From Bowmanella yangjiangensis (GTDB lineage Bacteria > Pseudomonadota > Gammaproteobacteria > Enterobacterales > Alteromonadaceae), in assembly GCF_017255015.1 (NCBI RefSeq), contig NZ_JAFKCS010000001.1, positions 120,772 to 184,771 of the forward strand: 64,000 nucleotides of DNA, written 5' to 3'. The notes beneath the pieces are model-generated. The model saw nothing but the letters and a program-made list of their open reading frames with translations, made no database searches and was not told where the DNA came from. Position 1 is the first letter of the stretch; each line of letters opens with the position of its first letter. A program made the translations under genes and the position numbers. Below are positions 17,984 to 52,661 of the stretch, in pieces.

Positions 17984-18002
17984 TTGTAAAATAAACAGAC
18001 AA
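17984..18002 (-). promoter_or_regulatory. conserved upstream element, likely activator site for sigma-54
   Basis: Minus strand TTGTCTGTTTATTTTACAA, with dyad ends TTGT and ACAA. It begins 61 bp upstream of the -24/-12 promoter and is centred near -96. A copy with 17 of 19 identical bases stands at exactly the same distance from the promoter of the second PEP-CTERM gene (52,643-52,661). A shared enhancer-binding protein such as PrsR is inferred. Confidence 0.65.
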
Positions 18003-18050
18003 TGTGTAAGTTAAATAAACCGAACATTTATCATGTTAATTAACAAAGAA

Positions 18051-18075
18051 AAAAGCCGGACTTTGTCCGGCTTTT
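18051..18075 (-). terminator. metK rho-independent terminator
   Basis: AAAAGCCGGAC, loop TTT and GTCCGGCTTTT form an 11-bp stem with A/T flanks, just downstream of the metK stop on the minus strand. It also insulates the PEP-CTERM regulatory region from metK transcription. Confidence 0.93.
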
Positions 18076-18094
18076 ACTTAATTAGCTATATTTA

Positions 18095-19237
18095 CTAGCT
18101 CTGACGTAATGCCTCGGCTTTATCTGTAGCTTCCCAGGGGAATTCCTCACGACCAAAGTGACCGTAAGCGGCCGTTGCCTGGTAGATGGGGCGTTCCAGA
18201 TCCAGCATCTTGATCAGACCATAAGGGCGCAGATCAAAATGTTCGCGCACCAGTGCAATCAATGTGGCTTCGTCAACTTTACCTGTGCCGAAAGTGTCAA
18301 TGCTGATTGAAGTGGGCTCTGCCACCCCAATGGCGTAGGACACCTGAATTTCACATTTGTCCGCCAAGCCTGCGGCAACAATGTTCTTGGCCACATAACG
18401 ACCAGCATAAGCGGCAGAACGGTCAACCTTGGATGGGTCCTTACCGGAGAAGGCACCACCACCATGGCGAGCCATGCCGCCGTAGGTGTCGACAATAATC
18501 TTACGGCCGGTCAGGCCGCAATCACCCATAGGACCACCAATAACAAAGCGGCCGGTTGGGTTGATAAAGAACTTGGTTTGGCTGCTCAGCCACTGAGCTG
18601 GCAGTACCGGCTTGATAATTTCTTCCATCACTGCTTCCTGCAGATCCGCGGTGGAGATGGAATCACAGTGCTGGGTCGACAGTACCACAGCATCAATACC
18701 CACAGGTTTGCCGTTCTCATAGGCAAAGGTCACCTGGCTCTTGGCATCCGGGCGCAGCCAGCTCAGCGTACCGTTTTTACGTACTTGGGCCTGGCGTTTT
18801 ACCAGCAGGTGTGAGTAAAAAATAGGGGCAGGCATCAGCACGTCAGTTTCATTGGTGGCATAGCCAAACATCAGGCCCTGGTCGCCGGCACCTTGTTCCT
18901 CGGGGCGAGAGCGATCCACACCCTGATTAATATCCGGGCTTTGTTTACCAATGGCATTAAGTACCGCGCAGGAGTCAGCATCAAAGCCCATATCTGAATG
19001 GACATAACCGATTTCACGTACGGTTTTGCGGGTCAGCTCTTCAATATCTACCCAGGCAGAAGTGGTAATTTCACCACCCACCAACACCATACCGGTTTTT
19101 ACGTAAGTTTCGCAGGCAACACGTGCTTTAGGATCCTGAGTCAGGATCGCATCCAGTACCGCATCAGAAATCTGGTCGGCAATCTTATCCGGATGGCCTT
19201 CGGATACAGATTCTGAGGTAAACAGATGTTTTGCCAT
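18095..19237 (-). CDS. metK: S-adenosylmethionine synthase
   Basis: 380-residue cytoplasmic enzyme making S-adenosylmethionine from methionine and ATP. Diagnostic motifs are [15 protein letters not shown] near the N terminus, [12 protein letters not shown] in the loop region and [19 protein letters not shown] in the ATP-binding part. Length is standard. It is transcribed away from tkt, and three tandem MetJ boxes lie in its leader at 19,330-19,353, so repression by MetJ with S-adenosylmethionine as corepressor is expected. Confidence 0.98.
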
Positions 19238-19329
19238 GATTCTTCCTCAAACATAAATTCAACTTCGACCGCTAGATTAACGGCCATAATGGCGCGCATT
19301 TTACCCCAGAGGACAAAAAAAGCCAGTTT

Positions 19330-19353
19330 TTACATCTAGACGTCTAAATGTCT
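19330..19353 (-). promoter_or_regulatory. three tandem met boxes (MetJ operator) of metK
   Basis: Three contiguous 8-bp units, TTACATCT, AGACGTCT and AAATGTCT, match the MetJ consensus AGACGTCT at 5, 8 and 6 of 8 positions. Tandem 8-bp spacing is the hallmark of MetJ operators. They lie about 95-115 bp before the metK start. The rest of the 307-bp gap to tkt (19,238-19,544) shows no further gene. Confidence 0.85.
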
Positions 19354-19544
19354 GTTTGTTAAGTTTGCTTGCCAGGCCCAATAAGTCAAGTGGCAGGAAT
19401 AAACCAGAACTAATACCTTATTCGCCTTTGGCATTGCGTAATCTGCTAACGTCATTGCAGTTGCCGCTGGGCTGGGTAAGAATAGGTGCCCGTTTTTGCC
19501 AAGAATCGTCAGGGCCTTAGTGTAGGCCCACAGCAGGAGTTAAT

Positions 19545-21557
19545 ATGCCCCAGTCACAAGCCACTCGTCGTGAGTTAGCCAACGCCATTCGCGCCCTATC
19601 TATGGACGCGGTTCAAAAAGCCAAGTCAGGTCACCCTGGAGCCCCTATGGGCATGGCCGATATTGCCCAGGTGCTTTGGTGCGATTTTCTTAATCACAAC
19701 CCGGCTAACCCTAACTGGACTAACCGTGACCGCTTTGTATTGTCAAACGGCCATGGCTCTATGCTGATTTATTCACTGTTGCACTTAAGCGGCTACGAAT
19801 TGCCTATCGAAGAGTTGAAGAACTTCCGTCAGTTGCATTCTAAGACCCCAGGTCACCCAGAATATGGTTATGCACCAGGGGTAGAAACCACCACAGGCCC
19901 ACTGGGGCAGGGGATTAGTAATGCTGTGGGTATGGCCATTGCTGAAAAAGCCCTGGCAGCGCAGTTCAACCGTGAAGGTCATGACATTATTGACCACTTC
20001 ACCTATTGCTTCCTGGGTGACGGCTGCTTAATGGAAGGGGTATCGCACGAAACCTGTTCATTGGCTGGAACGCTGGGTCTTGGCAAACTTATCGCGTTTT
20101 GGGATGACAACGGCATTTCCATTGACGGGCATGTGGAAGGCTGGTTTACCGACGATACTCCTGGGCGTTTTCGTGCTTACGGCTGGCACGTCATCGAAAA
20201 TGTAGACGGGCATGACGCAGAGCAGGTGAAAGCAGCCATTGAAGCGGCTAAAGCCGAAACTGACAAGCCAACCCTTATCTGTACTAAGACCATTATCGGT
20301 TTTGGTTCTCCCAATAAATCGGGTAGCCATGACTGTCACGGTGCGCCATTAGGTGATGAAGAAATCGCAGCAGCCCGTGAATTCCTGCAATGGCCACATG
20401 CACCCTTTGAGATTCCCGCCGAGGTTTATGCCGGTTGGGATGCCAAGGCCAAAGGCGCTACTCTTGAGCAACATTGGAACACCCGGTTTGAGGCCTATGC
20501 CAGTGCCTATCCCGAGCTGGCTGCTGAACTGACGCGCCGCCTGGCTGGCGAGCTACCAGCGGATTTTGCCGACAAAGCCGATGCCTTTATTCGTCAATGT
20601 CAGGATAAAGCCGAGAATATTGCCAGCCGTAAAGCCTCACAAAATGCTATCGAAGCCTATGCGGCCTTGTTGCCCGAAGTCATTGGCGGCTCTGCGGATT
20701 TGGCCGGTTCCAACCTGACCTTGTGGTCTGGCTCCAAAGGGCTGACTGCCGAGGATGCCAGCGGCAACTACATCTATTACGGTGTGCGCGAGTTTGGCAT
20801 GAGCGCCATTATGAACGGTATTGGCTTGCATGGCGGATTCCGTACTTACGGTGCGACCTTCCTGATGTTTATGGAATATGCCCGTAACGCCGTGCGTATG
20901 TCGGCGCTGATGAAGGTGCCAAATATTTTCGTCTATACCCATGACAGTATTGGTCAGGGGGAAGATGGTCCAACGCACCAGCCGGTTGAGCAAGTGGCTA
21001 ACCTGCGTCTGACCCCCAATATGGATACCTGGCGCCCATGTGATGCGGCCGAAACCGCGGTGGCCTGGAAGCTGGCGTTGCAGCGCACCGATGGTCCTTC
21101 TTCCTTGGTATTCAGCCGTCAGAATCTGGCAGCCCAAGTTCGTGATGATGCGCAACTGGCCAATATCGCACGTGGTGGTTATGTACTGAAGGACTGCGCA
21201 GGCCAGCCGGATATCATTTTGATTGCTACCGGCTCCGAAGTAGAAATTACCGTGGCGGCCGCCGCGCAGCTGAGCGAGCAGGGGCATAAAGTTCGGGTGG
21301 TGTCTTTGCCCAGCACCTCAGTTTTTGAGCGTCAGGACAGCGCTTATAAGGAAGCGGTGCTACCTGCAGCGGTCACCCGTCGTGTTGCGGTGGAAGCGGC
21401 GCACGTGGATTACTGGTACAAGTATGTTGGCCTTGGCGGCAAAGTTGTGGGCATGACGACCTTCGGTGAGTCTGCACCGGGTGGGGTGCTGCTTAAGCAC
21501 TTCGGCTTTACAACGGAAAATGTCGTTGCCACTGCCTTGTCCTTGCTTGGCGAATAA
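19545..21557 (+). CDS. tkt: transketolase
   Basis: 670-residue thiamine-diphosphate enzyme that moves two-carbon units between ketose and aldose phosphates in the pentose phosphate pathway and makes erythrose 4-phosphate. Motifs are [18 protein letters not shown] at the N terminus, the ThDP/Mg motif [12 protein letters not shown] and [19 protein letters not shown] in the pyrimidine-binding domain. GGAG lies before the ATG. Downstream is epd, whose substrate, erythrose 4-phosphate, is a product of this enzyme; the two are separated by a structured element at 21,575-21,869. Confidence 0.98.
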
Positions 21558-21572
21558 ACAAAAACGTACAAT
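21543..21572 (+). promoter_or_regulatory. sigma-70-like promoter before the tkt-epd structured element
   Basis: A good -10 hexamer TACAAT (21,567-21,572) lies 18 bp after a weaker -35 TTGCTT (21,543-21,548), overlapping the last codons of tkt. The predicted start near 21,579 is just at the 5' end of the structured element. Confidence 0.45.
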
Positions 21573-21574
21573 AC

Positions 21575-21869
21575 GGGCGCTTAAGAGCACCGAATGGGTA
21601 AATTATGACCACCAGTGCCTGGCAGAAATCCGCTTTGCCAAGGCACGGTTGCGTAGGAATATCGACAATCTTTCAAGCAGCCGTAACGCCGGAATAGCGG
21701 ATTTCCGGTGGCTCCCGCAGGGCGGGGTAGAAATTCCCCCAATCTGCCCCAGGCTCTTTAAGCTTTAGTACCACTAAAGCCGTAAAAAGACCTGGATTGC
21801 CTGAAGAAATTTCTACCTCCGCTGGAGCTCATACTTTACCCACTCGGCGCTCCAGCCCTTTTGTTTTTT
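21575..21869 (+). ncRNA. candidate structured RNA or attenuator between tkt and epd
   Basis: This region folds back on itself. Residues 21,575-21,629 pair with 21,809-21,858 in a long stem of some 40 base pairs, broken by regularly spaced single mismatches and small loops. Inside are a hairpin at 21,689-21,708 (CCGGAA/TTCCGG), and a two-part hairpin at 21,749-21,795 (CCAGG, TCTTT and GCTTTAGT arms). AATTTCTACC at 21,808-21,817 can alternatively pair perfectly with GGTAGAAATT at 21,726-21,735. The element ends with CCC and a T-rich tract, like an intrinsic terminator. It also holds a 30-codon ORF (21,605-21,697). I recognise no known family. The remaining bases to epd (21,870-21,914) show nothing clear. 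Confidence 0.5.
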
Positions 21870-21914
21870 AATCCTGAGTGGATTGTGCCATCGGGATTTA
21901 CTGAGTCGTCTTGC

Positions 21915-22934
21915 ATGTTACGTATTGCTATCAATGGTTTCGGACGTATAGGTCGCAATGTATTGCGCGCCTTATATGAAACCGGTCGTAACGACCAGGT
22001 GCAGATCGTCGCTATCAACGAGCTGGCCAAGCCAGAGGGGATTGCGCATCTGCTGAAATATGACACCTCCCATGGCCGCTTTCCTTTTGCAGTCAGCCTC
22101 GAGCGTGATCGCTTAAATGTCGCTGGTGACAGTATTCAACTGTTAAATAAAACCGAGATTAGCGAGCTTCCCTGGGCGCAGCTTGAGGTGGACCTGGTAC
22201 TGGAATGTACCGGTGTTTATGGTGACAGAGCAGCTGGCCAAGCCCATCTGGATCAAGGTGCCGGCAAGGTGTTGTTTTCCCAGCCTTGTAGCGGTGATGC
22301 CGATGTGGATGCCACAGTAATTTTCGGTATCAATGATGACCTGCTGACCCCTGAACATCGTATTGTGTCCAATGGCTCCTGCACGACCAACTGTATTGTG
22401 CCTGTGATCCAGGCGCTGGATCAGGCGTTTGGCGTGGACAGCGGCACTATCACTACCATTCATGCCTCAATGCATGATCAGCAGGTGATTGATGCTTATC
22501 ATCCAGACCTGCGTCGCACCCGCGCTGCCAGCCAGTCCATTATTCCGGTTGACACTAAGCTGGCCAGAGGCATAGAGCGGATCCTGCCCAAGTTTGCTGG
22601 CCGCTTTGAAGCTATTGCCGTGCGCGTGCCGACTATCAATGTGACGGCTATGGATTTAAGCGTCACTGTGGATACCGATGTCAATATCCAAAAAGTGAAT
22701 CAAGCCTTGATGCAAGCCAGGCACGGCCGTTTGGCGGGTATTCTGGGGTATACCGAAGAGCCGTTGGTGTCGGTGGATTTTAACCACGATCCGCATTCGG
22801 CCATCGTTGACGGTACCCAAACCCGGGTCAGCCACAAGCGGTTGGTAAAAACCCTGGTCTGGTGTGACAACGAATGGGGTTTTGCTAATCGTATGCTGGA
22901 TACCGCACTGGTGATGGCTGAAGGCTGTCGTTAA
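21915..22934 (+). CDS. epd: D-erythrose-4-phosphate dehydrogenase
   Basis: 339-residue NAD-dependent enzyme oxidising erythrose 4-phosphate to 4-phosphoerythronate, the first step of pyridoxal-phosphate synthesis. It has the GAPDH fold: [10 protein letters not shown] at the N terminus and catalytic Cys156 in NGSCTTNC. The block [22 protein letters not shown], in place of the GapA-type sequence, marks it as Epd rather than glycolytic GAPDH. The start is set by the family's N terminus; the ribosome site is weak. It forms a likely operon with pgk 60 bp downstream. Confidence 0.93.
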
Positions 22935-22994
22935 AAACAAATTTGCGACAGACAGGCTGTCGTCGCGCAACATTGCAAACTTTGGAGATATGCC

Positions 22995-24170
22995 ATGAAG
23001 GTTTTGAAAATGTCAGATCTGGATCTGGCCGGTAAGCGAGTGCTGATTCGCCAGGATCTGAACGTACCAGTAAAAGACGGCAAAGTGACGTCTGATGCAC
23101 GTATTAAAGCGTCTTTGCCAACGCTGAAAATGGCATTACAAGCTGGCGCCAAAGTGATGGTGATGTCTCACCTGGGGCGTCCTACCGAAGGTGTGGTGGA
23201 AGATGAATATTCCCTGGCTCCAGTGGTGGATTACCTCAAATCCGTGCTGCAATGCCCCGTGCGTCTGGCCAAAGATTATCTGAACGGTTTGGATGTGCAG
23301 GCCGGTGAACTGGTTGTGCTGGAGAACGTGCGTTTTAATACCGGTGAAGGCAAAGATGACGAGCAACTGTCCCGTCAATATGCTGCCCTTTGCGACATTT
23401 ATGTAATGGATGCTTTTGGAACCGCTCACCGTGCGCAGGCTTCCACCCATGGTGCCGGTTTGTATGCTCCTGTCGCCTGTGCAGGTCCTTTGTTAGCGGC
23501 AGAATTGGAAGCACTGGGTAAAGCTCTGGACAACCCGGCCCGGCCTTTGCTGGCCATTGTCGGTGGCTCTAAAGTGTCTACCAAACTGACGGTGTTAGAG
23601 TCCTTGTCAGAAAAAGTCGATCAACTGATTGTTGGTGGTGGTATCGCCAATACCTTTATCGCTGCCACCGGTAATGCGGTTGGAAAGTCTCTGTACGAAG
23701 CTGATCTAATCCCTGAAGCGCAGCGTCTGCTGGCGAAGGCGCAGGCCAATGGTGGTGACATTCCCGTGCCGGTGGACGTCATTGTTGGTCAGGTGTTTTC
23801 TGAGACTGCCGAAGCCACCCATAAGCAAGTGGGTGATGTTAGCGCAGAGGATATGATCTTTGATATCGGCCCACAAACGGCTGAGATTCTGGCTAAGCTG
23901 ATTGAAAAAGCCGGTACTATTGTTTGGAACGGCCCTGTAGGGGTTTTCGAATTTGATCAGTTTGGTGGCGGCACCAAAGCCTTGTCCATGGCCATTGCCA
24001 ACAGCAACGCCTTCTCTATTGCCGGCGGCGGTGACACCCTGGCAGCGGTAGATAAGTACGATATTGCTGACAAGATCTCCTATATTTCCACCGGTGGTGG
24101 TGCATTTTTGGAGTTTCTGGAAGGTAAAGTGCTGCCAGCCGTTGCCATGCTGGAAAAGCGCGCTGGATAG
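22995..24170 (+). CDS. pgk: phosphoglycerate kinase
   Basis: 391-residue glycolytic enzyme transferring phosphate from 1,3-bisphosphoglycerate to ADP. N-terminal [13 protein letters not shown], the SHLGRPTEG loop, [15 protein letters not shown] and C-terminal GGGDTLAAV are all intact, covering substrate and nucleotide sites. GGAG precedes the ATG. It follows epd and precedes the class I aldolase, the usual epd-pgk-fba order of gammaproteobacteria. Confidence 0.98.
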
Positions 24171-24229
24171 ATGATCAGAATGCGCGGTGTCATGATAGTC
24201 ACTGCGTCTTAAGAATTTAATAACAAGAA

Positions 24230-24283
24230 GGGTTTAAACCCTCAATAATTGAATAATTATCTTTGTACCCTGGCCCTAGGGCC
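24230..24283 (+). other. two perfect 12-bp palindromes upstream of the aldolase gene
   Basis: GGGTTTAAACCC at 24,230-24,241 and GGCCCTAGGGCC at 24,272-24,283 lie in the 136-bp gap between pgk and the aldolase. The second ends about 11 nt before the ribosome binding site and could form a hairpin near it. Neither is followed by a T-run, so they are not ordinary terminators. AT-rich sequence between them could hold a promoter. Confidence 0.4.
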
Positions 24284-24306
24284 GAAACCAAAAAGGAGCG
24301 TTGCCG

Positions 24307-25206
24307 ATGGCAGCCGAAGCCAAGACAGAAATGTTGAACAAAGTACTAACCCAGGATGGGTTTATTGCCGCGCTGGATCAAAGTGGCGGCAGTACGCCAA
24401 AAGCGTTGAAGCTTTACGGCCTGAGTGAGTCTGATTGGTTCAGTGATGAGCAGATGTTTGACCTGGTACACCAGATGCGTGCGCGTATTGTAACAAGCAA
24501 CGCCTTTGGCGGTGATCGGGTGCTAGGCGCCATCTTGTTTGAAAATACCCTGGATCGTGAGATTGAGGGTAAGCCTTCTTCACGTTATTTGTGGGATGTG
24601 AAACAAGTGGTCCCTTTCCTCAAGGTTGACAAAGGTCTGGAAGATGAGGCCAACGGCGTGCAGCTGATGAAAGCCATGCCGGGCCTGGATGCATTGTTGG
24701 CCAAAGCGGTTGCTCAAGGCGTGTTTGGTACTAAGATGCGTTCTGTGATTAAGCAGGCTAATGCAGTCGGGATTAGCGCAGTAGTGGCGCAGCAGTTTGA
24801 GGTGGGTAAACAGATTCTGGCCGCAGGCCTGATACCTATTATCGAACCTGAAGTGGATATTCACTGCCCGGCGAAAACCGAGGCTGAGACTCTGCTTAAA
24901 CAAGCTTTGTTGGCTGAGTTGGACAAGCTTGGCGTTGACCAGAGAGTCATGTTGAAGCTGACCCTGCCTAACGAAGATAATTTCTATCGTGATTGCATTG
25001 AGCATCCTAATGTTATCAGGGTGGTTGCTTTGTCCGGTGGTTACAGCCGTGATGACGCCAATCTCAAGCTAAGCCACAACCAGGGGATGATTGCCAGTTT
25101 CTCCCGTGCATTGACGGAAGGTTTGTCTGCCAAGCAATCAGACGCTGAATTTGATGCGGCTTTGGATACGGCCATTGAAAGTATCTATCAGGCATCCAAA
25201 GCCTGA
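24307..25206 (+). CDS. fda: class I fructose-bisphosphate aldolase
   Basis: 299-residue Schiff-base aldolase splitting fructose 1,6-bisphosphate. It belongs to the class I group known from Staphylococcus Fda: [17 protein letters not shown] at the N terminus, [29 protein letters not shown] with the likely Schiff-base Lys, and [11 protein letters not shown] for phosphate binding. It takes the place that the metal-dependent class II FbaA holds after pgk in E. coli. The ATG at 24,307 is used because GGAG lies 8 nt upstream. It ends at a strong terminator. Confidence 0.95.
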
Positions 25207-25220
25207 AGCAGATTGAACTA

Positions 25221-25250
25221 AAAAACGGGGTGCAATTGCACCCCGTTTTT
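25221..25250. terminator. rho-independent terminator
   Basis: A perfect 30-bp palindrome, AAAAACGGGGTGCAA and its reverse complement, with a terminal T-run. It ends the epd-pgk-fda transcript. Confidence 0.95.
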
Positions 25251-25392
25251 TCTTTCGCTTCGTCTAATTTTCTATGTGCTTGGAAAATACAGGAATAATT
25301 TACCATTTGAGCAAAAAACATACGAAAAAAACCGAGCAAATTAGTCTGATTTAGTTACAATTGCGGCCTGAGAGCTATTGAGGACCCGCCCG

Positions 25393-26178
25393 ATGAAAAA
25401 ACAATCCACTCTGGCATTATTTGCCGCCCTGTTTTTTGCTTCCACTGCGCAGGCAGATGCATTGGATAATCTGTTTGCAGCTGACGTTAGTGTACCGGAA
25501 GAAGCTGAAAAACCATTTAGCCTGGACGGCGAGATTGGTTTCGTGGCGACCACGGGAAATACCGATTCAACCAGTTTTAAAGGGCGCCTGAATGCACATC
25601 AGGAGCTGGAGTCCTGGAGCAACGATTATATTCTGGAAGGCTTTTATAAGCAGGACGAGAAAGAAATCGACGACGAAATGGTTTCACAAACCACAGCACA
25701 GAAAATATTCGCTTCAGGCCAGGGTAACTACAAGTTAGAAAATCCGGCACATCGAGTGTTTGCCTTTGGTTCATACGAAGATGACCGTTTCAGCGGCTTT
25801 GAGTATCAGGCTACCGTAGCTGGTGGTTGGGCGCATCAATTGTGGAAGAATGATGTTTCTGCATTTAGCTACAGCATCGGTCCGGGTTATTCCTTCGCTG
25901 AGCGAGAGTCTGGTGAAAGTGCCAATGGTGCGATTGTGCGTGGCGCCGTCGACTATAAGTGGAAAATTTCTGACACCGCTAACTTCCGTCAGCTGTTCAG
26001 TACGGAAGTGGGTAGCGACAATACCAAGTCAAAATCAGAAACCTCATTGTCAGCGCAAATCAATGGCTCACTGGCGATGAAATTGGCGGTTATCCTCAAT
26101 CACAACACAGACGTAGCTGATGATGTGGAAGAATTGGATACGCAAACCTCAGTGACATTGGTATACAGCTTCTTCTAA
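25393..26178 (+). CDS. DUF481 outer-membrane protein (YdiY-like)
   Basis: 261-residue secreted protein. A signal peptide (ALFAALFFASTAQA) is followed by strands with alternating hydrophobic residues. GEIGFVATTGNTDSTSFKG is the typical opening of DUF481 'salt-induced outer membrane' proteins, and the chain ends in a C-terminal aromatic (VYSFF), as expected of an outer-membrane beta-barrel. The function is unknown. GAGGA lies about 8 nt before the chosen ATG. A TACAAT box at 25,356-25,361 may be its -10 element. It is followed by the 51-bp repeats. Confidence 0.85.
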   Translation: MKKQSTLALFAALFFASTAQADALDNLFAADVSVPEEAEKPFSLDGEIGFVATTGNTDSTSFKGRLNAHQELESWSNDYILEGFYKQDEKEIDDEMVSQTTAQKIFASGQGNYKLENPAHRVFAFGSYEDDRFSGFEYQATVAGGWAHQLWKNDVSAFSYSIGPGYSFAERESGESANGAIVRGAVDYKWKISDTANFRQLFSTEVGSDNTKSKSETSLSAQINGSLAMKLAVILNHNTDVADDVEELDTQTSVTLVYSFF

Positions 26179-26181
26179 TCC

Positions 26182-26299
26182 CGTTCATCCTGAACATCGC
26201 CGTTCCAGTTCATCCATGAACCCACGGCATACCGTTCATCCTGAACATCGCCGCTCCAGTTCATCCATGAACCCACGGCATACCGTTCATCCTGAACAT
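26182..26299. repeat. 51-bp tandem palindromic repeat, 2.3 copies
   Basis: Two full units (26,182-26,232 and 26,233-26,283) differ at one base, and a third is cut after 16 bp. Each unit holds two small palindromes, GTTCATCCTGAAC and GTTCATCCATGAAC. The array lies between two convergent genes, directly before their shared terminator. Because 51 is a multiple of 3 it gives an open minus-strand frame with a 17-residue repeat, which is not thought to be a gene. Confidence 0.9.
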
Positions 26300-44060: not shown

Positions 44061-44759
44061 TTGACCTACGACAACCTCGACGCCTTCGTTTTACATCGAC
44101 GACCCTACCGGGAAACCAGCTTTCTGGTGGACATTTTTAGTCGAGAGATGGGACGGATCAGCTTCGTAGCCAAAGGGGTGCGCAATAGCAAAAATGCCAA
44201 TCGCAGTGTGTTACAGCCTTTTGTGCCCGTGCAGATCAGTTTGGTTGGCCGTCATGAATTAAAAAACCTTAAACAGGTGGAAAGTACCGGGCGTGCATTT
44301 CAACTACAGGGCTCTGCGTTGTTTTGCGCCATGTACCTGAATGAGTTGTTGCAGCGTTTATTGCCACTGGAGTTGGCGGTGGAACCTTTGTTTGATGCCT
44401 ATGTTCAGAGTCTGCAAGCGCTGCTGGCTAAAGAGGCGTTTGAGCCGTTGCTTAGGGAATATGAACTCTTGCTGCTCAGTGAGCTGGGATATCAACTGGA
44501 TTTTGGCTTTGATGCGCAAACCCAGCAGCCCCTGCGTAGCGACACTTTTTACTGTCTTGATGTCGAACAAGGCTTTGTGCTCAGTGCCGTGCAGCGAGCA
44601 ACGGTGAACGATTTTCGTGGCGACTGGTTGATGCAAATTGGTGAAGGCCAGTGGACGCCGGAAGCACTACGCAGTGCAAAATTTATCAACCGCATTATGC
44701 TTAAACCCTTATTGGGGAATAAGCCGTTGAAAAGCAGAGAGCTTTTCCAAACTAATTAG
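44061..44759 (+). CDS. recO: DNA repair protein RecO
   Basis: 232-residue RecFOR-pathway protein that helps load RecA on SSB-coated DNA. The N-terminal OB fold begins [20 protein letters not shown] and continues [10 protein letters not shown] and [11 protein letters not shown]; the C-terminal helical part shows the usual length. The zinc-finger Cys set of some RecO proteins is absent, as in E. coli. The start is TTG at 44,061; no ATG fits the family N terminus. It heads a recO-pdxJ-acpS run. Confidence 0.94.
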
Positions 44760-44775
44760 TGGAGTTATGAGCAAA

Positions 44776-45507
44776 ATGAAAGAGATTCTGCTAGGGGTCA
44801 ATATCGACCATGTTGCCACCTTAAGAAATGCCAGAGGTACGGCCTACCCGGACCCTGTGCATGCCGCAGAGATCGCTGAACGGGCCGGCGCAGACGGCAT
44901 CACCATTCATTTGCGTGAAGACAGGCGACACATTATTGATCGCGACGTGGAAATTTTGCGTCAGACACTGCAAACCCGTATGAACCTGGAGATGGCGGTC
45001 ACCGAGGAGATGCTAATGATCGCCTCGCGCATTCGCCCTGAATTTTGTTGCCTGGTGCCTGAAAAGCGTGAAGAGCTGACCACTGAAGGCGGTCTGGATG
45101 TGGCCGGTAACCTGGAAAAAATCCGGCTGGCCAGTGGCCGTTTAGCTGCTGACGGAATTCTTGTGTCGTTGTTTATTGATGCTGACAACGCGCAAATCGA
45201 TGCTGCCAAAGCCAGTGGTGCTCCTTATATCGAACTGCATACCGGCGCTTACGCCGAAGCGCGCAATGAACATGAGCGTGACATTGAACTGGCAAAAATT
45301 GCCGAAGGGGCCCGTTATGCCCACAGTCTGGGACTGAAGGTCAACGCCGGACATGGCCTGACTTATCATAACGTCAAACCTATTGCCGCCATTCCTGAAA
45401 TGATTGAGCTGAATATAGGGCATGCCATTGTTGGCCGGGCGGTGTTTGATGGCCTGCACAAAGCCGTGGCAGATATGAAACGCCTGATGCTGGAAGCGCG
45501 AGGCTGA
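44776..45507 (+). CDS. pdxJ: pyridoxine 5'-phosphate synthase
   Basis: 243-residue TIM-barrel enzyme condensing 1-deoxyxylulose 5-phosphate with 3-amino-2-oxopropyl phosphate to give pyridoxine phosphate. [20 protein letters not shown] is at the N terminus, with [32 protein letters not shown] and [12 protein letters not shown] conserved. An ATG at 44,767 is also in frame, but GGAG lies only 2 nt before it and 11 nt before 44,776, where the family sequence begins. It forms an operon with recO and acpS. Confidence 0.96.
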
Positions 45508-45513
45508 TCGCCA

Positions 45514-45891
45514 ATGGCCATAGTGGGAATGGGCACCGATATTGTCGAGATCAAGCGTATTGGTGATGCGCTGGCAAAATCTCAGCGCCTGGCTGAGCGC
45601 GTGCTGACCGACGCTGAACTGGAAGACTATAAACAGCATAATTATCCCGAACGTTTCTTAGCGAAACGCTTTGCAGCTAAGGAAGCCATGGTAAAAGCGA
45701 TCGGCACGGGAATTGGCAATGGTATTAGCTTCAGGCAGATGGAGATTGGCCACCACGCCAGCGGCGCCCCGTTTTTACTGCTTAGTGGTAATTTGCAGGT
45801 GCTTTGTGACGAGAAAGGGGTGAGTGCTACCCACCTGAGCATTGCTGATGAGCAACATTATGCGGTGGCGACTGTGATCCTGGAGAAGTAA
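45514..45891 (+). CDS. acpS: holo-[acyl-carrier-protein] synthase
   Basis: 125-residue phosphopantetheinyl transferase that activates acyl carrier protein from CoA. The two Mg-binding motifs are plain: GMGTDIVEIKRI near the N terminus and RFLAKRFAAKEAMVKAIGTGI in the middle. SGAPFLLLSG and LSIADEQHYA follow the family pattern. It starts 6 bp after pdxJ, as in E. coli. Confidence 0.97.
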   Translation: MAIVGMGTDIVEIKRIGDALAKSQRLAERVLTDAELEDYKQHNYPERFLAKRFAAKEAMVKAIGTGIGNGISFRQMEIGHHASGAPFLLLSGNLQVLCDEKGVSATHLSIADEQHYAVATVILEK

Positions 45892-45898
45892 CGACTTT

Positions 45899-47230
45899 AT
45901 GGTTCAGATTTATAAAGCGCCCAAAGGCAAGAAACCAAGCCCTATTGGTGCACCCAAGCTTACCCTTAGCATTGATGATTTAGAACATGGTGGGCTGGGT
46001 GTCTGCCGAAGTCATCAGCCCGTGGTGTTTGTTGAAGGCGGCTTGCCCGGTGAACAGCTAGAAGTGCGTATCACTGACAAGAAACCCCGTTACTGGCAAG
46101 GCCTGGCGGTTAAGGTGTTAACTCCCAGTGCTGAGCGTATCGAGCCTTTTTGCCCGCACAGCCGTGAATGTGGCGGCTGTCAGAATCAGCATATTGGCCA
46201 GACTGAACTACTTGTTCACAAGCAACAGGCGGTAGACCAGCTGCTCAAGCGTCAGACCGGCATAAAAACCCTCAATTGGCAGGCGCCATTATTAGGGCCT
46301 GCCCAGGGCTATAGACGTAAAGCCCGGCTTGCCATTGACGCACAAAATAAAGCTGACGTGAAGGTAGGCTTTCGTGCCAAGGGCAGCGATCAGGTGGTAT
46401 CGATAAAACAGTGCGCTATTTTGAGCGAGCCACTGCAAGCCATACTGCCGCCATTGCTCAGCCTGATTAAACTGCTCAAAGGCACCAAGCAGTTAGGCCA
46501 TATCAGTGTGCTGGATGCCGATGACCAGGTGCAATTGTGTTTGCGTGTTACCCGTGCGCTGCCTGGTGAGGATCTGGTCAGACTTAGCCAGTTTGCTGAG
46601 GACAATAGCCTCAGACTGCTGCTGGAAACGGCGCCAAACCGCTTTGAGCTGGTAGGCGGTACTAGCCAGGATGCCCACTATTCACCCTCTGCCGAACTGA
46701 GTTTGGCTATTGGCCCCAATGATTTTATTCAGGTGAATAATGTGGTGAATCAGGCCATGGTCAGCCAGGCGCTGACTTGGCTGCAAGTCAAACCGGGTGA
46801 ACAGATACTGGATTTGTTTTGCGGGGTGGGCAACTTTAGTTTGCCACTGGCCCATGCCGGTGCTCAGGTGACCGGTGTGGAAGGTATTGAGGCAATGGTT
46901 AAGCGCGCCGCAATAAATGCCAGCGAAAATGGCTTGCAGGTTGATTTTCAGTGCCTGGATTTATCCGACACAGCGGCACTGGCTAAACTCCCGTCGCAGA
47001 TAGACAAAGTGCTGCTTGATCCTGCCCGTGCCGGTGCGCAGGCGCTGATGTCGGTTCTACACAAACTCAATCCCAAGGGGATTTTGTATGTTTCCTGTAA
47101 TCCAGCTACTTTTGCCCGGGATGCAGCAGTACTCATAGATAAAGGCTGGCAAGTTGACAAAATTGGCCTGATGGATATGTTCCCCAATACCGCACATACC
47201 GAACTGATGGCGCATTTTTCAAAGGCATAG
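45899..47230 (+). CDS. rlmD: 23S rRNA (uracil1939-C5)-methyltransferase
   Basis: 443-residue enzyme of the RlmD/RumA group. An N-terminal TRAM domain precedes the Fe-S Cys cluster FCPHSRECGGCQNQ. The methyltransferase core shows LDLFCGVGNFSLPLA for S-adenosylmethionine and the catalytic Cys region YVSCNPATFARD. It sits between acpS and relA, joining two clusters that are separate in E. coli. Confidence 0.96.
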   Translation: MVQIYKAPKGKKPSPIGAPKLTLSIDDLEHGGLGVCRSHQPVVFVEGGLPGEQLEVRITDKKPRYWQGLAVKVLTPSAERIEPFCPHSRECGGCQNQHIGQTELLVHKQQAVDQLLKRQTGIKTLNWQAPLLGPAQGYRRKARLAIDAQNKADVKVGFRAKGSDQVVSIKQCAILSEPLQAILPPLLSLIKLLKGTKQLGHISVLDADDQVQLCLRVTRALPGEDLVRLSQFAEDNSLRLLLETAPNRFELVGGTSQDAHYSPSAELSLAIGPNDFIQVNNVVNQAMVSQALTWLQVKPGEQILDLFCGVGNFSLPLAHAGAQVTGVEGIEAMVKRAAINASENGLQVDFQCLDLSDTAALAKLPSQIDKVLLDPARAGAQALMSVLHKLNPKGILYVSCNPATFARDAAVLIDKGWQVDKIGLMDMFPNTAHTELMAHFSKA

Positions 47231-47305
47231 GGCTGGCATGCATCGGCATTTTTTGCGAAGCTCAGGGCTGATGTAATTCACAATTAATGGCTGATAACTG
47301 AGATC

Positions 47306-49453
47306 ATGGTTTCCATTCGCAAGGTGCACAAACAAACCGTTCCTTTTACCCAGTGGTTGGTGTCACTGCATCTGTCTGATGCTACTGCGGCGAAACTGAG
47401 CGCCTGGCAGGAACGTTTTGAATGCCCCTTGGTGGGGCGCGAAATGGTGGAGATTCTGCATGATCTGCACATGGATGACGACACCCTGCAAACTGCGCTA
47501 ATGCTGCCGCTCATTGAGCAGCAGCAATGGAGCGAAGAAAAAATTCTGGAGCTGACCAATCCGCATATCCTGGGATTGGTGCAAGGGGTCAGACGGATGG
47601 ACGCCATTCGTACGCTGCATAGCAACAAACAGGCCCGTACTGATGAGGCGCAGATTGATAATCTGCGCAGGATGTTGCTGGCCATGGTGGAAGATGTGCG
47701 CGCTGTGGTCATCAAGCTGGCAGAACGTATTTGCACCCTGCGTGAAGTCAAAAACGCTGACGAAGAAACCCGCGTATTGGTCGCTAAAGAATGTGCCAGC
47801 ATTTATGCCCCTCTGGCCAATAGGCTTGGCATTGGGCAACTGAAATGGGAGTTGGAAGACCTGTCATTTCGGTATTTGCATCCGGAAACGTACCGACAGA
47901 TTGCCAACCTTCTGGATGAAAAACGCGAGGACAGAGAGCAATACATTCTGGATTTTGTTAGCAATTTGCAGCAGCAGTTAACGGAGCAACAAATTCGCGC
48001 TGAAGTATACGGGCGGCCCAAACATATCTATAGCATCTGGAAAAAGATGCAGAAAAAGCACCTGGGTTTTGATGAGCTGTTTGATATCCGTGCGGTAAGG
48101 ATTATTGCTGAACGTCTGCAGGATTGTTATGGCGCGCTGGGGATTGTGCACGCTAACTGGAAACACATTCCCCGCGAATTTGATGATTATATTGCTACCC
48201 CTAAACCCAATGGCTACCAGTCTATTCATACCGTGGTGGTTGGGCCGCAGGGCAAGGCAGTGGAGATTCAGATTCGTACCCAGCAAATGCATCAGGATGC
48301 TGAGCTGGGGGTGGCTGCCCACTGGAAGTATAAAGAGGGCGCGCCGGGTGGGCGTAGCGGTTACGAAGAGAAAATTAACTGGCTGCGTAAAATTCTGCAA
48401 TGGCAGGAAGAAATGGCTGAGACGGGTGACTTGGTTGAAGAGCTGCGCAGCCAGGTATTTGATGACAGGGTGTATGTCTTTACCCCTAAAGGTGATGTGG
48501 TGGACCTGCCACTTGGTTCAACGCCACTGGATTTTGCCTACTACATTCACTCCAATGTCGGTCACCGCTGTATCGGCGCTAAGGTATTTGGCCGTATTGT
48601 GCCTTTTACCTATCAGTTGCAAACCGGCGACCAGGTAGAGATTCTAACGGGCAAGCACCCCAATCCCAGTCGCGACTGGATGAATCCGCATTTGGGTTAT
48701 GTGCACTCGTCCCGAGCCAGAGCCAAGATCCATACCTGGTTTAAGAAACTCGACCGCGACAAAAATCTGCAAGCCGGTAAGGAAACCCTGGAAAAAGAGC
48801 TGCAGCGAATTAATTTGCCGCTCAAAGAAGCCGCAGAGGCCTGCGAGAAGTTTAATTTCACTCACCTGGATGATTTGTATGTGGCCATAGGCGGTGGCGA
48901 TGTGCGTTTGTATCAGGTAGTGAATTACTTGCAGCAGCGCAATGCCCCGCCTGCCCCGCTGGACTTGCGCCTTAAGAAAAAGCCGCACCCTGCTCAGGGG
49001 AAAGATGCGGTGGTGGTAGAAGGAGTGGGCAATCTGATGACCCAGTTGGCCGGTTGCTGTCAACCTTTGCCAGGTGACCCCATTATGGGCTTTATTACCC
49101 AGGGCCGCGGCGTGAGTGTGCATCGCGAAGATTGTGAGCAGCTTGCTCACCTGATGCAGGAGCACCCGGAGCGCGGCATAGAAGTGAACTGGGCGGGGGA
49201 GCGTAGCGGCGCTTTCGAATCCAATATTGAGATAAACTGCGCCGATCGTGACGGGATATTGCGTGATATCACTACAGTGCTGGCTAACGAGAAAATTGGC
49301 TTGTTGGGTGTGAATAGCCTGAGTAACGCTAAAGAACACACCGCTCGTATCAGTCTGAAACTTGAGGTAAAGGACCTCAATAGTCTGGCGAAGATTATTG
49401 CCAAGTTAAAATTCGTTAATGGTGTAGCAGACGTAAGACGCTCGGAGCTCTAA
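47306..49453 (+). CDS. relA: GTP pyrophosphokinase RelA
   Basis: 715-residue ribosome-associated (p)ppGpp synthetase of the stringent response. The N-terminal domain keeps the fold but has LMLPLIEQQQ where bifunctional SpoT keeps its HD metal residues, so it should be synthesis-only. The synthetase part has YGRPKHIYSIWKKM and DDYIATPKPNGYQSIHT. TGS (VYVFTPKGDVVDLPLGST), zinc-finger (CCQPLPGDPI) and C-terminal ACT domains follow. mazG is downstream. Confidence 0.97.
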   Translation: MVSIRKVHKQTVPFTQWLVSLHLSDATAAKLSAWQERFECPLVGREMVEILHDLHMDDDTLQTALMLPLIEQQQWSEEKILELTNPHILGLVQGVRRMDAIRTLHSNKQARTDEAQIDNLRRMLLAMVEDVRAVVIKLAERICTLREVKNADEETRVLVAKECASIYAPLANRLGIGQLKWELEDLSFRYLHPETYRQIANLLDEKREDREQYILDFVSNLQQQLTEQQIRAEVYGRPKHIYSIWKKMQKKHLGFDELFDIRAVRIIAERLQDCYGALGIVHANWKHIPREFDDYIATPKPNGYQSIHTVVVGPQGKAVEIQIRTQQMHQDAELGVAAHWKYKEGAPGGRSGYEEKINWLRKILQWQEEMAETGDLVEELRSQVFDDRVYVFTPKGDVVDLPLGSTPLDFAYYIHSNVGHRCIGAKVFGRIVPFTYQLQTGDQVEILTGKHPNPSRDWMNPHLGYVHSSRARAKIHTWFKKLDRDKNLQAGKETLEKELQRINLPLKEAAEACEKFNFTHLDDLYVAIGGGDVRLYQVVNYLQQRNAPPAPLDLRLKKKPHPAQGKDAVVVEGVGNLMTQLAGCCQPLPGDPIMGFITQGRGVSVHREDCEQLAHLMQEHPERGIEVNWAGERSGAFESNIEINCADRDGILRDITTVLANEKIGLLGVNSLSNAKEHTARISLKLEVKDLNSLAKIIAKLKFVNGVADVRRSEL

Positions 49454-49518
49454 TCGGCCTTTGACAGGCCAACTACAATTCGATGGCTTGTTCGCAATAC
49501 AAAGTTAAGGGAAGTGTT

Positions 49519-50334
49519 TTGACAATTATTCATGATCAGAACTATCCGAATCTGGATAAGCTGCTTTGGGTGATGGACCGTTTACGTGACCCAGAAGATG
49601 GCTGCCCGTGGGACTTAAAGCAGACTTTTGCCAGCATTGTACCTTTCACCCTTGAAGAAGCTTACGAAGTGGCGGATGCCATTGAAAGTGGGCAACCTGA
49701 AGCTATTCGAGAGGAGTTAGGCGATCTGCTGTTTCAGGTGGTGTTTTATGCCCGCCTAGGCAAAGAGCAGGCCTTGTTTGACTTTGAGGACGTGGCCGGT
49801 GCTATGGCCGAGAAGCTAATTCGTCGCCATCCTCATGTATTTGCCCAGGCAAAGTTTGATGAGTCAGAGGTCAAGGCTAACTGGGAAGCGGAAAAAGCCA
49901 AAGAGCGTGCCGATAAAGCCGGCGGCAGTGCCTCGTTACTGGATAACATTCCCAGAGCCATGCCAGCTCTGACCCGCGCAGCAAAAATTCAGAAGCGCTG
50001 CGCCACGGTTGGCTTTGACTGGCCGGATACTGAAGGCGTCTTTGCCAAGATTCAGGAAGAAATTTTGGAAGTGCAGGATGAGTTAGCTAAACCTCAAATA
50101 GACGAGCAGGCCCTGGAGGAAGAATTAGGCGATCTGTTATTCGCCACGGTGAATTTGCTGCGCAAGCTCAAAAAAGATCCAGAAACCATGTTGCGACGAG
50201 CCAATGACAAGTTTGAACAGCGATTTTCCTATATCGAAGCGCATTTGAACGGACAAGGTCTGTCGCTTCAGCAGGCCAGCTTGGAAGAAATGGAAAAACT
50301 TTGGCAGCAGGCCAAACAGCAGGGAAAAACTTGA
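49519..50334 (+). CDS. mazG: nucleoside triphosphate pyrophosphohydrolase MazG
   Basis: 271-residue two-domain MazG. The first domain has DPEDGCPWDLKQTF, LEEAYEVADAI and EELGDLLFQVVFYARL; the second has EEILEVQDELA and EEELGDLLFATVNLLRKL, each with the E-E-x-D metal pattern. It hydrolyses (d)NTPs and lowers ppGpp after starvation in E. coli. A TTG at 49,519 with AAGGGAAG just upstream is preferred over the ATG at 49,483, which has no ribosome site. Confidence 0.94.
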   Translation: MTIIHDQNYPNLDKLLWVMDRLRDPEDGCPWDLKQTFASIVPFTLEEAYEVADAIESGQPEAIREELGDLLFQVVFYARLGKEQALFDFEDVAGAMAEKLIRRHPHVFAQAKFDESEVKANWEAEKAKERADKAGGSASLLDNIPRAMPALTRAAKIQKRCATVGFDWPDTEGVFAKIQEEILEVQDELAKPQIDEQALEEELGDLLFATVNLLRKLKKDPETMLRRANDKFEQRFSYIEAHLNGQGLSLQQASLEEMEKLWQQAKQQGKT

Positions 50335-50438
50335 GGAGCATCAATGCGCCGACCAGTGTTAGCGACTAAGCTGCATAGGTAGATGATGCCTCAATCGGGA
50401 AGGCCAGTTTCTAATTTTGTAAACAGTAACGAGCATTC

Positions 50439-51686
50439 ATGGCAAAAGTGAAGATCCACCCCGACAACCTGCGATTAGGCATGTATGTCAAACTGCCTTC
50501 AGGGTGGATGAAGCACCCGTTTCTATTCAGTAGCTTTAAACTGACCAATCAAGAACAAGTCCGGGTGATTCGCGCCCTGAAGCTTCCCTATGTGTTGATC
50601 GATACAAGCAAAAGTGATGCTCAACCGGAGGAAGAAGTACAGCTTGCTCCCCAGGAAATGGTTGAAGCCGAAACCGACCATCTGTTGGAACAAATGGAAA
50701 GGGAGAAAAGCCAGCGCATTGAACAACTGAAGCAATTCCGCCGCAGTCTGCAGAAGACAGAGAAAAATTTCCAACGCAGTTTGGCGCAGGTTCGGGCGCT
50801 GATGACCAAAGTGGGTAGCCGACCATTGCAAGCGGTGGAAGAAGCGCAGCAGTTGATCAGTGACATGGCCGAAATAATCCTGGGGGAAGAGAATGTCGCC
50901 TTGCACCTGATGAATCCTGATAAGCAAGGGGATGATCTGTACTTCCATTCTCTGAACGTGGCTGTTTTGGCCATGATGCTGGCCAGGCAGGCCGGGCTGA
51001 ATCGCGAGCAGGGGCAGAAACTAGGCTTGGCCGCTTTGTTTCATGATGTGGGGAAATTGAAAATCCCTAGTCAGGTAATGCGCAAGACTACGCCATTAAC
51101 TAAACCCGAACAAAATCTGCTGAAAATGCACTGCCAGTATGGGGTTGATTTGCTAAGTCATTCAGAGGCTTTTCCCGGCGATATTTTACCGGTGATCCTG
51201 CAGCATCACGAATTTATGGATGGCAGCGGTTACCCGCGAGGATTGAGTGGTGCGGCCATCGATCCGCTGGCACAAATTCTCATGCTGGTGAATGAATACG
51301 ATAATCAGTGTTACCCAAGGGACCCGGCAAATGCCAAGATCCCTTATCAGGCACTGTCTCATCTGTTCAAAAGTATGAAAGCTAAGCTGCCAGACAGGGA
51401 AACCAAGTTATTAGTAAAGCTGCTTGGCGTTTATCCTCCGGGTACTGTCGTCATGCTGTCTGACAATAGGGTAGGGATGGTCATTTCGGTGAATACCGCA
51501 GACCTGCTAAATCCTTCATTGCTGCTTTATGATGACTCTGTGCCAAGCACGGAAGCGCCAATGGTTACCTTGAAAGATTATGGGGCCAACATACAAAAGG
51601 TGCTCAAGCCATCACAGCTTCCTGAACCTATTGCTATTTATTTAAATCCACGTAGCCGCATCAGCTACTTTGTAGATAAAACATAA
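50439..51686 (+). CDS. HD-GYP domain protein with DUF3391 N terminus
   Basis: 415-residue cytoplasmic protein. The N-terminal DUF3391 (residues 1-110; IHPDNLRLGMYVKLP) leads to a coiled stretch and then an HD-GYP phosphodiesterase domain with the metal pair His202-Asp203 in FHDVGKLKIP and the signature HHEFMDGSGYPRGL. The key residues are present, so cyclic-di-GMP hydrolysis is likely. A link to PEP-CTERM biology is suggested only by the neighbouring gene. It ends at a good terminator. Confidence 0.92.
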   Translation: MAKVKIHPDNLRLGMYVKLPSGWMKHPFLFSSFKLTNQEQVRVIRALKLPYVLIDTSKSDAQPEEEVQLAPQEMVEAETDHLLEQMEREKSQRIEQLKQFRRSLQKTEKNFQRSLAQVRALMTKVGSRPLQAVEEAQQLISDMAEIILGEENVALHLMNPDKQGDDLYFHSLNVAVLAMMLARQAGLNREQGQKLGLAALFHDVGKLKIPSQVMRKTTPLTKPEQNLLKMHCQYGVDLLSHSEAFPGDILPVILQHHEFMDGSGYPRGLSGAAIDPLAQILMLVNEYDNQCYPRDPANAKIPYQALSHLFKSMKAKLPDRETKLLVKLLGVYPPGTVVMLSDNRVGMVISVNTADLLNPSLLLYDDSVPSTEAPMVTLKDYGANIQKVLKPSQLPEPIAIYLNPRSRISYFVDKT

Positions 51687-51711
51687 AAAACGCTCCAATT
51701 GGAGCGTTTTT
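51686..51711. terminator. bidirectional rho-independent terminator
   Basis: AAAAACGCTCC, loop AATT and GGAGCGTTTTT between the converging HD-GYP and PEP-CTERM genes. Confidence 0.93.
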
Positions 51712-51726
51712 CACATAATCATTTAG

Positions 51727-52506
51727 TTACTTGCGTTTACGTGCAAAGCCTAACGCGACTAAACCTAACCCCATCAGAGTAAGGGGAGCTGGGATTGGAA
51801 CCGGTGTACCGATCACGTTACCGCCAACAGTCGCACCGTCAAAAGCCATGGCGCTGTCGAAGCTGTTGTCGTTCCAGTTTACTACACCCATTTGCAGGTA
51901 ATAGTTGCCCGCATTAGCGATGGTATAGCTAGCTTTTATCCAACCGGTGTAACCGCAACCAGTGGCAAAGCAACTTCCGGAATCGCTGCCCAGTATAGAC
52001 CAGTCAGGGTTGCCACCGACAATAGGCGTGCTACCTGGAGAAAGTGTTGCTTCTGGATTTGGCATTGAGAAACCTGGAACTGTATTACCACCATTCGTTG
52101 TTCTGGCAGTAAACAGCAGAGCTACTTGGTTCATCGCACTATCTAATAACCTTGCCCAGGCATAGTCGGAATATTCCGCACCATCAGAGGTCACATAATT
52201 AAAGAAAAACTCCAGGGAGTCACCGGTATTGGCAGCGAATACTGGTGACAGTGCAACGGAACCAAGTTCGGGAGTACCAGAACCACCCACACCGGGCAGA
52301 CCTAATCCGCTGACACCATTATCCGTGCTAACGTATCCAAATTGAGCGCTACCGAATGGGGATGTGGTGATATCCCCATCACCTGCAGTGCTTCCATAGT
52401 TACCTTGTCCGGTCCAGCCGGTCATCAGTGATGCAGATGCGTGTCCAGCCATTCCCAAGGCGGCTAACAGTAAGCAAGCAGTATTTACTACTTTCCTAAA
52501 CTTCAT
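51727..52506 (-). CDS. PEP-CTERM sorting domain protein
   Basis: 259-residue exported protein. A signal peptide ends near GHASAS. The body is a Gly/Ser/Asn-rich beta fold with two Cys in SGSCFATGCGY and resembles the NF038132 group of PEP-CTERM proteins. The C terminus has the Pro-rich VPIPAPLT, a hydrophobic helix and basic RKRK, the exosortase signal. AAGGAG precedes the start. A sigma-54 promoter and an enhancer-like element like those of the first PEP-CTERM gene lie upstream. No exosortase is in the window. Confidence 0.88.
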   Translation of the reverse strand: MKFRKVVNTACLLLAALGMAGHASASLMTGWTGQGNYGSTAGDGDITTSPFGSAQFGYVSTDNGVSGLGLPGVGGSGTPELGSVALSPVFAANTGDSLEFFFNYVTSDGAEYSDYAWARLLDSAMNQVALLFTARTTNGGNTVPGFSMPNPEATLSPGSTPIVGGNPDWSILGSDSGSCFATGCGYTGWIKASYTIANAGNYYLQMGVVNWNDNSFDSAMAFDGATVGGNVIGTPVPIPAPLTLMGLGLVALGFARKRK

Positions 52507-52565
52507 TTACAACTCCTTTATATTTTAAATGATTGCCTGTTCTCGTTAACTTGGCGTGCTCACTT

Positions 52566-52581
52566 AGCAAATACCGTTCCA
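52566..52581 (-). promoter_or_regulatory. sigma-54 (-24/-12) promoter of second PEP-CTERM gene
   Basis: Minus strand TGGAACGGTATTTGCT differs from the RpoN consensus TGGCACG-N4-TTGCW at one position. The implied start is about 50 nt before the ATG at 52,506. It lies in a 355-bp gap (52,507-52,861) that holds this promoter, the upstream element at 52,643 and no visible gene. Confidence 0.78.
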
Positions 52582-52642
52582 TCTAGAAAAATCTTTTTAA
52601 ATCATCATCTTGCAGATTTTTCATGGTGATTTTCTGCTATTC

Positions 52643-52661
52643 TTGTAAAAAAAATAGACAA
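52643..52661 (-). promoter_or_regulatory. conserved upstream element, likely activator site for sigma-54
   Basis: Minus strand TTGTCTATTTTTTTTACAA, 17 of 19 bases identical to the element before the first PEP-CTERM gene and at the same 61-bp distance from the promoter. The TTGT/ACAA ends are dyad symmetric. Confidence 0.65.

Follow-up and report, generated by a model that had tools for sequence, protein, structure and literature searches.

What does an activator recognise upstream of the sigma-54 promoters of PEP-CTERM genes, and what sets its distance from them? The question is raised by a stretch of 64,000 nucleotides of the Bowmanella yangjiangensis (Alteromonadaceae) genome, referred to below as the window, in which two PEP-CTERM protein genes (A and B) each follow a predicted sigma-54 promoter. 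A first-pass annotation, made from the letters of the window, had pointed to a 19-bp element shared by the two promoters (17,984-18,002 and 52,643-52,661, minus strand). Its coordinates are right, the two copies are identical at 17 of 19 bases, and each stands 61 bp upstream of the TGG of its -24 element (TGGCACAAATGGTGC, TGGAACGGTATTTGC). The present study indicates that the element is very probably the PEP-CTERM box of an enhancer composed of PrsR, IHF and sigma-54 RNA polymerase, the parts of which would be required on one face of the DNA helix. The features of the two promoters are collected in Table 1.

The conserved core of the element is TGTC-N7-TTTACA, 17 nt in length, and its flanking bases are almost free of information. 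The recognition sequence proposed earlier does mark a recurring site, but its core is not TTGTC-N10-ACAA, and it had been published already. In the window, TTGTC-N10-ACAA without mismatches occurs just at the two sites noted; allowing up to one mismatch raises the count to 24, where 16.2 would be expected, and since 9 of 100 shuffles reach this number, the loose pattern alone is nothing unusual. Haft et al. 2006 (BMC Biol 4:29, PMC1569441), in their section on motifs, described a 17-nt motif 1 with the 3' end TTTACA at PEP-CTERM genes of Proteobacteria, followed after a mean spacer of 62.8 nt (standard deviation 10.6, range 32-92) by motif 2, a 17-nt sigma-54 motif; the motifs precede 99 of 167 PEP-CTERM genes, and PrsR was proposed as the likely binder of motif 1. 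The boxes in the window are likewise 17-mers ending in TTTACA, with a spacer inside the range of 32-92 nt, before PEP-CTERM genes, in a genome where PrsR, PrsK and PrsT co-occur. Since length, 3' end and spacing all agree with motif 1, the element of the window is, as judged by sequence, the PEP-CTERM box of Haft et al. 2006 and hence not new. The same section gives the spacer as a mean, deviation and range; discrete distances and a site for IHF do not come up in it.

The first-pass annotation had named recurrence before other PEP-CTERM genes as the check on its reading, and the element does recur. This genome has 20 PEP-CTERM places at E<=1 (19 over the cut-off), and a joint score for box and sigma-54 element identifies the pair before 11 of the 20. 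A twelfth pair, with a spacer of 50, was found by hand at a gene on contig C334 (L019/L041, G000:C334:109576-110858), the reading frame of which appears to be interrupted upstream of the PEP-CTERM tail, after the secreted part, while box and promoter are in place; the break may be genuine or an assembly error. The exact core TGTC-N7-TTTACA occurs 20 times in the genome, compared to 9 times for the reversed control pattern. Ten of the 20 boxes are followed at a distance of 50-75 bp by a sigma-54 element and then by a likely gene, an eleventh (L034) has a weak sigma-54 element and lies inside a long coding frame, and for the others no sigma-54 element was found at a distance of this kind. Two of the ten genes lack a TIGR02595 match, namely L047, in the prs locus described below, and L032 (G000:C1:349436; spacer 61), whose product is metalloprotease-like by eye and has a degenerate PEP-CTERM-like tail.

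When relatives are added (the 20 places of this genome and 138 from the best of the relatives' PEP-CTERM matches), the pair stands before 96 of 158 genes, in 18 of 19 genomes, whereas the mean over 20 shuffled sets was 0.75 and the count for the opposite strand was 1. Outside the family it was found in 57 of 101 genes, representing 40 of 60 genomes. An even draw over the phylum had yielded PEP-CTERM matches in 5 of 80 genomes, 3 of them new, and a class-wide draw (70 of 369) was used instead. The 101 genes comprise 12 loci of the phylum draw (leaving aside those of G005 and G042), 29 of 30 loci of the class draw and 60 further class-draw places, taken by turns over genomes among the matches listed; this last selection omitted G046 and all genomes belonging to the family itself, as well as most of the short open frames, some of the long ones and a number of other entries. 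Locus L239, which has no upstream DNA, was unused. Over all sets, the joint score, which was trained on 86 of the promoters it counted, places box and sigma-54 element before 171 of 259 PEP-CTERM genes, against about 1 in shuffles. The orientation of the box is nearly fixed, because reversed boxes with a sigma-54 element were found at just 2 of the 259 genes, compared to 153 in the normal orientation.

The distance between box and promoter, given as 61 bp from the 19-mer, is exact at both sites in the window (62 nt from TTTACA to TGG), but it represents the commonest spacer class and is no constant. The spacers of the first set (this genome and its relatives) are 41-42, 49-53, 59-64, 73-75 and 83-86, and none falls at 54-58, 65-72 or 76-82; this list sets aside two pairs with a spacer of 118 and a single one with a spacer of 28. 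The latter, before L011, was judged spurious, the joint score offering a weaker pair at 63. After removal of 7 of the 96 promoters as too similar, and of 3 with spacers outside 38-90, the 25 spacers off the main peak gave a best period of 11.05, and none of 20,000 jittered sets was as concentrated. The independent set, from outside the family, has spacers of 41, 52-53, 60-63, 72-75, 83-85 and 95-97, plus one of 66 and four above 100. Four of its 57 promoters were removed as duplicates and then 4 of 53 as lying outside 38-100; the best period was 10.94, with R 0.83, the largest R among 2000 jittered sets being 0.53. The pooled 135 spacers form classes with means of 41.3 (n = 4), 51.7 (15), 62.3 (79), 73.7 (22), 84.4 (8) and 95.7 (7), about 10.9 bp apart, and 127 of the 135 lie within 2.25 bp of a 10.9-bp comb, compared to 55.7 for a uniform distribution; spacers above 100 were excluded from the comb fit. 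Of the 171 promoters found by the joint score, 166 deviate by no more than 2.5 bp from the comb extended to 106.6, but the test on the independent set carries more weight, because joint score and comb share largely the same genes.

The region between box and promoter contains a second conserved feature. Unexpected information is present at -32 to -18 before the TGG, and much of it corresponds to the IHF consensus, WATCARNNNNTTR, in two orientations. In the first set, from which the windows for the IHF site were picked, the consensus with up to one mismatch is found in 54 of 86 promoters, compared to a mean of 11.2, and at most 21, in 2000 column shuffles, which preserve the base composition of each position. 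In the same windows the independent set gave 19 of 49, against 4.5 in shuffles (largest 11 of 1000). Anywhere in the spacer, 101 of 157 promoters (171 minus 14 too similar) have it, against 33.9 in shuffles (largest 46). With the first consensus base counted as the centre, 87 site centres lie between -21 and -18, compared to an expectation of about 3. Sites of both orientations have their peak at -19/-20 and thus one common centre. Where the spacer is about 52, 62 or 74 bp, box and IHF centre are about 33, 43 or 54 bp apart, respectively; at spacers near 84 the IHF centre itself is at -30 in all four promoters with a site. Both arms, from box to IHF site and from IHF site to promoter, are thus variable by turns.

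The first-pass annotation had noted a further run, AAAAATCTT, between box and promoter. It is present in both promoters, but its register to the promoter is one base off (6 bp from the TGG in A, 5 bp in B), and it is therefore not base-fixed relative to the promoter. According to PMC8421141, in its account of IHF binding, the protein introduces a bend of about 160 degrees, the kinks being separated by 9 bp, and the strongest sites mostly combine the consensus on one side with an A-tract on the other. The run lies on the A-tract side of the predicted IHF site in both promoters of the window, which accounts for its presence. By this reading of the sequence, the predicted IHF site was overlooked in the earlier annotation and explains the shared AAAAATCTT as well.

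Such a signal might instead come from an intrinsic bend in A/T-rich DNA, or from UP-type contacts of the RNA polymerase alpha subunits, and not from an IHF site. The positions from -20 to -3 before the TGG are generally A/T-rich, and in 56 of the 157 promoters no IHF match appears even if one mismatch is allowed, both of which would suit this explanation. Column shuffles, however, keep the A/T profile and fall far short of the observed 54 of 86; the two orientations share one centre; and a perfect IHF site is found at -32 before the L218 gene, in a stretch of 65% G+C. We therefore regard a bend or contact of this type as unlikely.

The proteins that such an enhancer would require are encoded in the genome. 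The prs locus, on contig C889, codes for PrsT, a PEP-CTERM protein (C889:87312), an HprK-related kinase, PrsK (599 bits) and PrsR (712 bits), with PrsR, PrsK and PrsT all over their curated cut-offs in this single locus. PrsR has receiver, sigma-54 activator and Fis-type helix-turn-helix domains, and a GAFTGA motif is present. Genes for IHF alpha and IHF beta were also found over cut-offs. In the prs locus, beside HprK-related kinase A, L047 (L205:10454-11221, G000:C889:90303) carries a box and a sigma-54 element with a spacer of 50; its product of 255 aa looks Tat-like at the N-terminus when inspected by eye, and it matched nothing in Pfam or NCBIfam at the thresholds used.

The binder of the box might instead be another Fis-type enhancer-binding protein of the genome, since the sigma-54 activator part of the PrsR model is covered by 13 further matches. 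Only a single match, with 711 bits, passes the PrsR cut-off, however, the next one scoring 378 bits. Among the 30 genomes searched, all 19 with PEP-CTERM matches have PrsR over the cut-off. Counts of the exact box and of the reversed control are 342 and 187 in the 21 genomes with PrsR, with an excess of the box in 19 of the 21, whereas the 9 genomes without PrsR have 57 against 84, with an excess in 3. A different activator is thus quite improbable, and the earlier reading of the element as a site for an enhancer-binding protein gains support from its recurrence and from this PrsR-linked excess. Two relatives, G010 and G023 (loci L091 and L092), have PrsR over the cut-off and no TIGR02595 match at E<=0.01. 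In the portion of the open-licence PMC literature covered, no DNA-binding test of PrsR was found.

The quantised spacing might also have been inherited from a few ancestral promoters that were copied together with their genes, rather than selected for helix face. PEP-CTERM genes do form paralogous groups, and many share one spacer class. On the other hand, promoters with similar spacers were removed before the test, and the comb reappears in the independent set, in 40 genomes outside the family. Moreover, the spacer moves between homologous genes. The gene B protein has matches at six loci in the genome contigs scanned, including those of Bowmanella pacifica (83%), B. denitrificans (77%) and B. 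dokdonensis (68%), the remainder being from Litorilituus and Colwellia. The spacer of promoter B is 62 bp in the window and 63, 75, 74, 61, 61 and 64 bp in the orthologues, where the box of B. dokdonensis has two mismatches; within Bowmanella, promoters of this NF038132 gene have thus shifted by one turn, between 62-63 and 74-75 bp. Among 97 homologous pairs, which share genes and are in part non-independent, spacers differ by 0-3 bp in 59, by 4-7 in none, by 8-14 in 32, by 15-18 in none and by 19-31 in 6. Simple inheritance is accordingly disfavoured, and we consider it very unlikely. A chance likeness of two A/T-rich gaps, for which one could cite T runs, through which portions of the element turn up readily, and a one-mismatch pattern not clearly over-represented in the window, is rejected on the opposite-strand counts and on the shuffles, which gave at most 2 pairs in 158 genes against 96, with reversed boxes at 2 of 259 genes against 153.

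The following sequence of events is proposed for the PrsR-IHF-sigma-54 enhancer. PrsK and PrsR would sense a signal, and PrsR, phosphorylated by its partner kinase PrsK, would bind the box centred at about -97. IHF would bind at about -46, between box and promoter, and bend the DNA sharply, such that the AAA+ ring of PrsR could reach the sigma-54 RNA polymerase and open the promoter with ATP. These positions are numbered with the GG at -25/-24. A loop so short would tolerate little twist; spacers would therefore be found only whole turns (about 10.9 bp) apart, because box, bend and promoter would have to share one helix face, and spacer evolution would proceed one turn at a time. The analysis shows the sites, their recurrence and quantised spacing, the fixed position of the IHF consensus and the genes for PrsR, PrsK and both IHF subunits; we infer that both proteins bind, that the DNA is bent and looped, and that equal phase is required.

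Additional boxes appear to follow the same geometry. Within 500 bp upstream, beyond the first box, there are 25 further boxes in the same orientation, 22 of them in genomes outside the family, and 4 in the opposite one. Of the second boxes, 20 lie at 60-170 bp, with clusters at 100-101, 110-112, 119-122, 131-133 and 145 and others at 77, 159, 166 and 167 bp; the clustering has P 0.0003 against 3000 jittered sets, with the period scanned, and a best period of 11.22. A second box, where present, would often be situated 9 to 13 turns further upstream, probably with unchanged orientation and facing the same side of the helix.

Taken across the class, PEP-CTERM enhancers are probably rigid and modular, with parts set whole helical turns apart, in which the steps from box to IHF site and from IHF site to sigma-54 element are each quantised, and a second box, where there is one, often lies on the same face. 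The natural spacers would then likely read out the helical repeat in vivo, at about 10.9-11.1 bp. This is near the values of 11.08, and 10.95 without HU, fitted to lac loops in E. coli, for which another data set gave 11.60 (PMC1762422). Several observations weigh against the proposed PrsR-IHF-sigma-54 enhancer. No pair is detectable by the joint score before 88 of the 259 PEP-CTERM genes, including 9 of the 20 places in this genome. The IHF consensus is found in the expected windows of just 19 of the 49 promoters in the independent set and is missing from the 56 promoters mentioned above. Spacers of 65, 66, 107-109 and 118 sit worse on the comb. Finally, most promoters have a single box, another being found in 21 of 139, and many sigma-54 activators use two sites.

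Boxes were also observed in an unusual position. In three genomes of this genus, at L045 (G000:C778:70944-70960), G001:C5:98570 and G002:C1:625856, a PEP-CTERM gene is followed directly after its stop codon by an exact box and then by a terminator-like hairpin; each of these genes also has an upstream box with a spacer of 53. The box after the stop codon is possibly a downstream enhancer. As a new promoter, the box at C778:70,944 was rejected, the best sigma-54-like word lying in the terminator-like hairpin.

Table 1. Features of the two sigma-54 promoters of PEP-CTERM genes in the window (window coordinates)
Feature	Position	Strand	Sequence or remark
PEP-CTERM box A (motif 1, predicted PrsR site)	17985..18001	-	TGTCTGTTTATTTTACA, zero mismatches to TGTC-N7-TTTACA
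IHF consensus of promoter A	17941..17953	+	TATCAGTTGATTA, perfect match to WATCARNNNNTTR; begins 31 bp before TGG, counted on promoter strand
AAAAATCTT run, promoter A	17929..17937	+	read as A/T-rich side of putative IHF site
Sigma-54 -24/-12 element A	17906..17922	-	TGGCACAAATGGTGCTA
PEP-CTERM protein gene A	17125..17862	-	ATG at 17,859 is the likely start; 245 aa if counted from TTG
PEP-CTERM box B	52644..52660	-	TGTCTATTTTTTTTACA, zero mismatches to TGTC-N7-TTTACA
IHF-like site of promoter B	52600..52612	+	AATCATCATCTTG, one mismatch to WATCARNNNNTTR, placed as in A
AAAAATCTT run, promoter B	52587..52595	+	read as A/T-rich side of putative IHF site
Sigma-54 -24/-12 element B	52565..52581	-	TGGAACGGTATTTGCTA
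PEP-CTERM protein gene B	51727..52506	-	259 aa; NF038132 family, 279 bits (cut-off 90)

In a six-frame search, TIGR02595 (PEP-CTERM) was found over its cut-off at C1:137902 and C1:172501, the ends of genes A and B. With whole proteins, in hmmscan, gene A passes TIGR02595, while gene B scores 13.2 against a cut-off of 16 and passes NF038132. The C-terminus of the gene A protein has a weak, sub-cut-off likeness to the exosortase-dependent surface protein XDP1. Convergent with gene B is a gene for a protein with DUF3391 and HD domains, resembling a cyclic di-GMP phosphodiesterase (50439-51686, plus strand).

The box itself was proposed in 2006; new here are the quantised spacing and the predicted IHF site at PEP-CTERM promoters, of which no earlier report was found in the portion of the open-licence PMC literature covered. 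A natural regulon, spread over dozens of genera, has sampled the distance from 41 to 97 bp in essentially one helical phase and usually with a fixed bend site. The spacing rule may serve as a code for predicting PEP-CTERM regulons, and the natural spacers as a measure of helical phasing in enhancer-dependent transcription. IHF would also enter the control of exosortase-sorted surface proteins in biofilm- and floc-forming bacteria, and with it possibly growth phase and supercoiling as inputs. A PEP-motif exosortase substrate is listed in a table of the RNA-seq section of a Geobacter IHF paper (PMC7962754), in the relevant sections of which we found no analysis of its promoter.

Among known systems, motif 1 of Haft et al. 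is like the window box in its 17 nt, its TTTACA end, its spacing to the sigma-54 element, its PEP-CTERM genes and its occurrence in genomes with PrsR, PrsK and PrsT. The pepA promoter of Aquincola tertiaricarbonis (PMC9850573), which has a mapped start, also belongs to a PEP-CTERM gene, depends on RpoN1 and has a 'previously predicted enhancer' upstream; in the account of this promoter the enhancer is merely noted, with no analysis of an IHF site or of spacing. An IHF site between enhancer and sigma-54 promoter is well established in general (PMC7962754, PMC7057263), nifH and Pu being IHF-assisted cases according to titles cited in these papers. As in NifA- and NtrC-type promoters, the PEP-CTERM promoters would combine an upstream enhancer-binding protein, IHF in between and a -24/-12 promoter. 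In contrast to the separations of 100-150 and 100-140 bp given for that type in the corresponding sections of the two papers, the PEP-CTERM box is somewhat nearer to its promoter (centre at about -97), and, unlike NifA- and NtrC-type promoters, the PEP-CTERM promoters have a geometry that is stereotyped across the regulon and in many genera.

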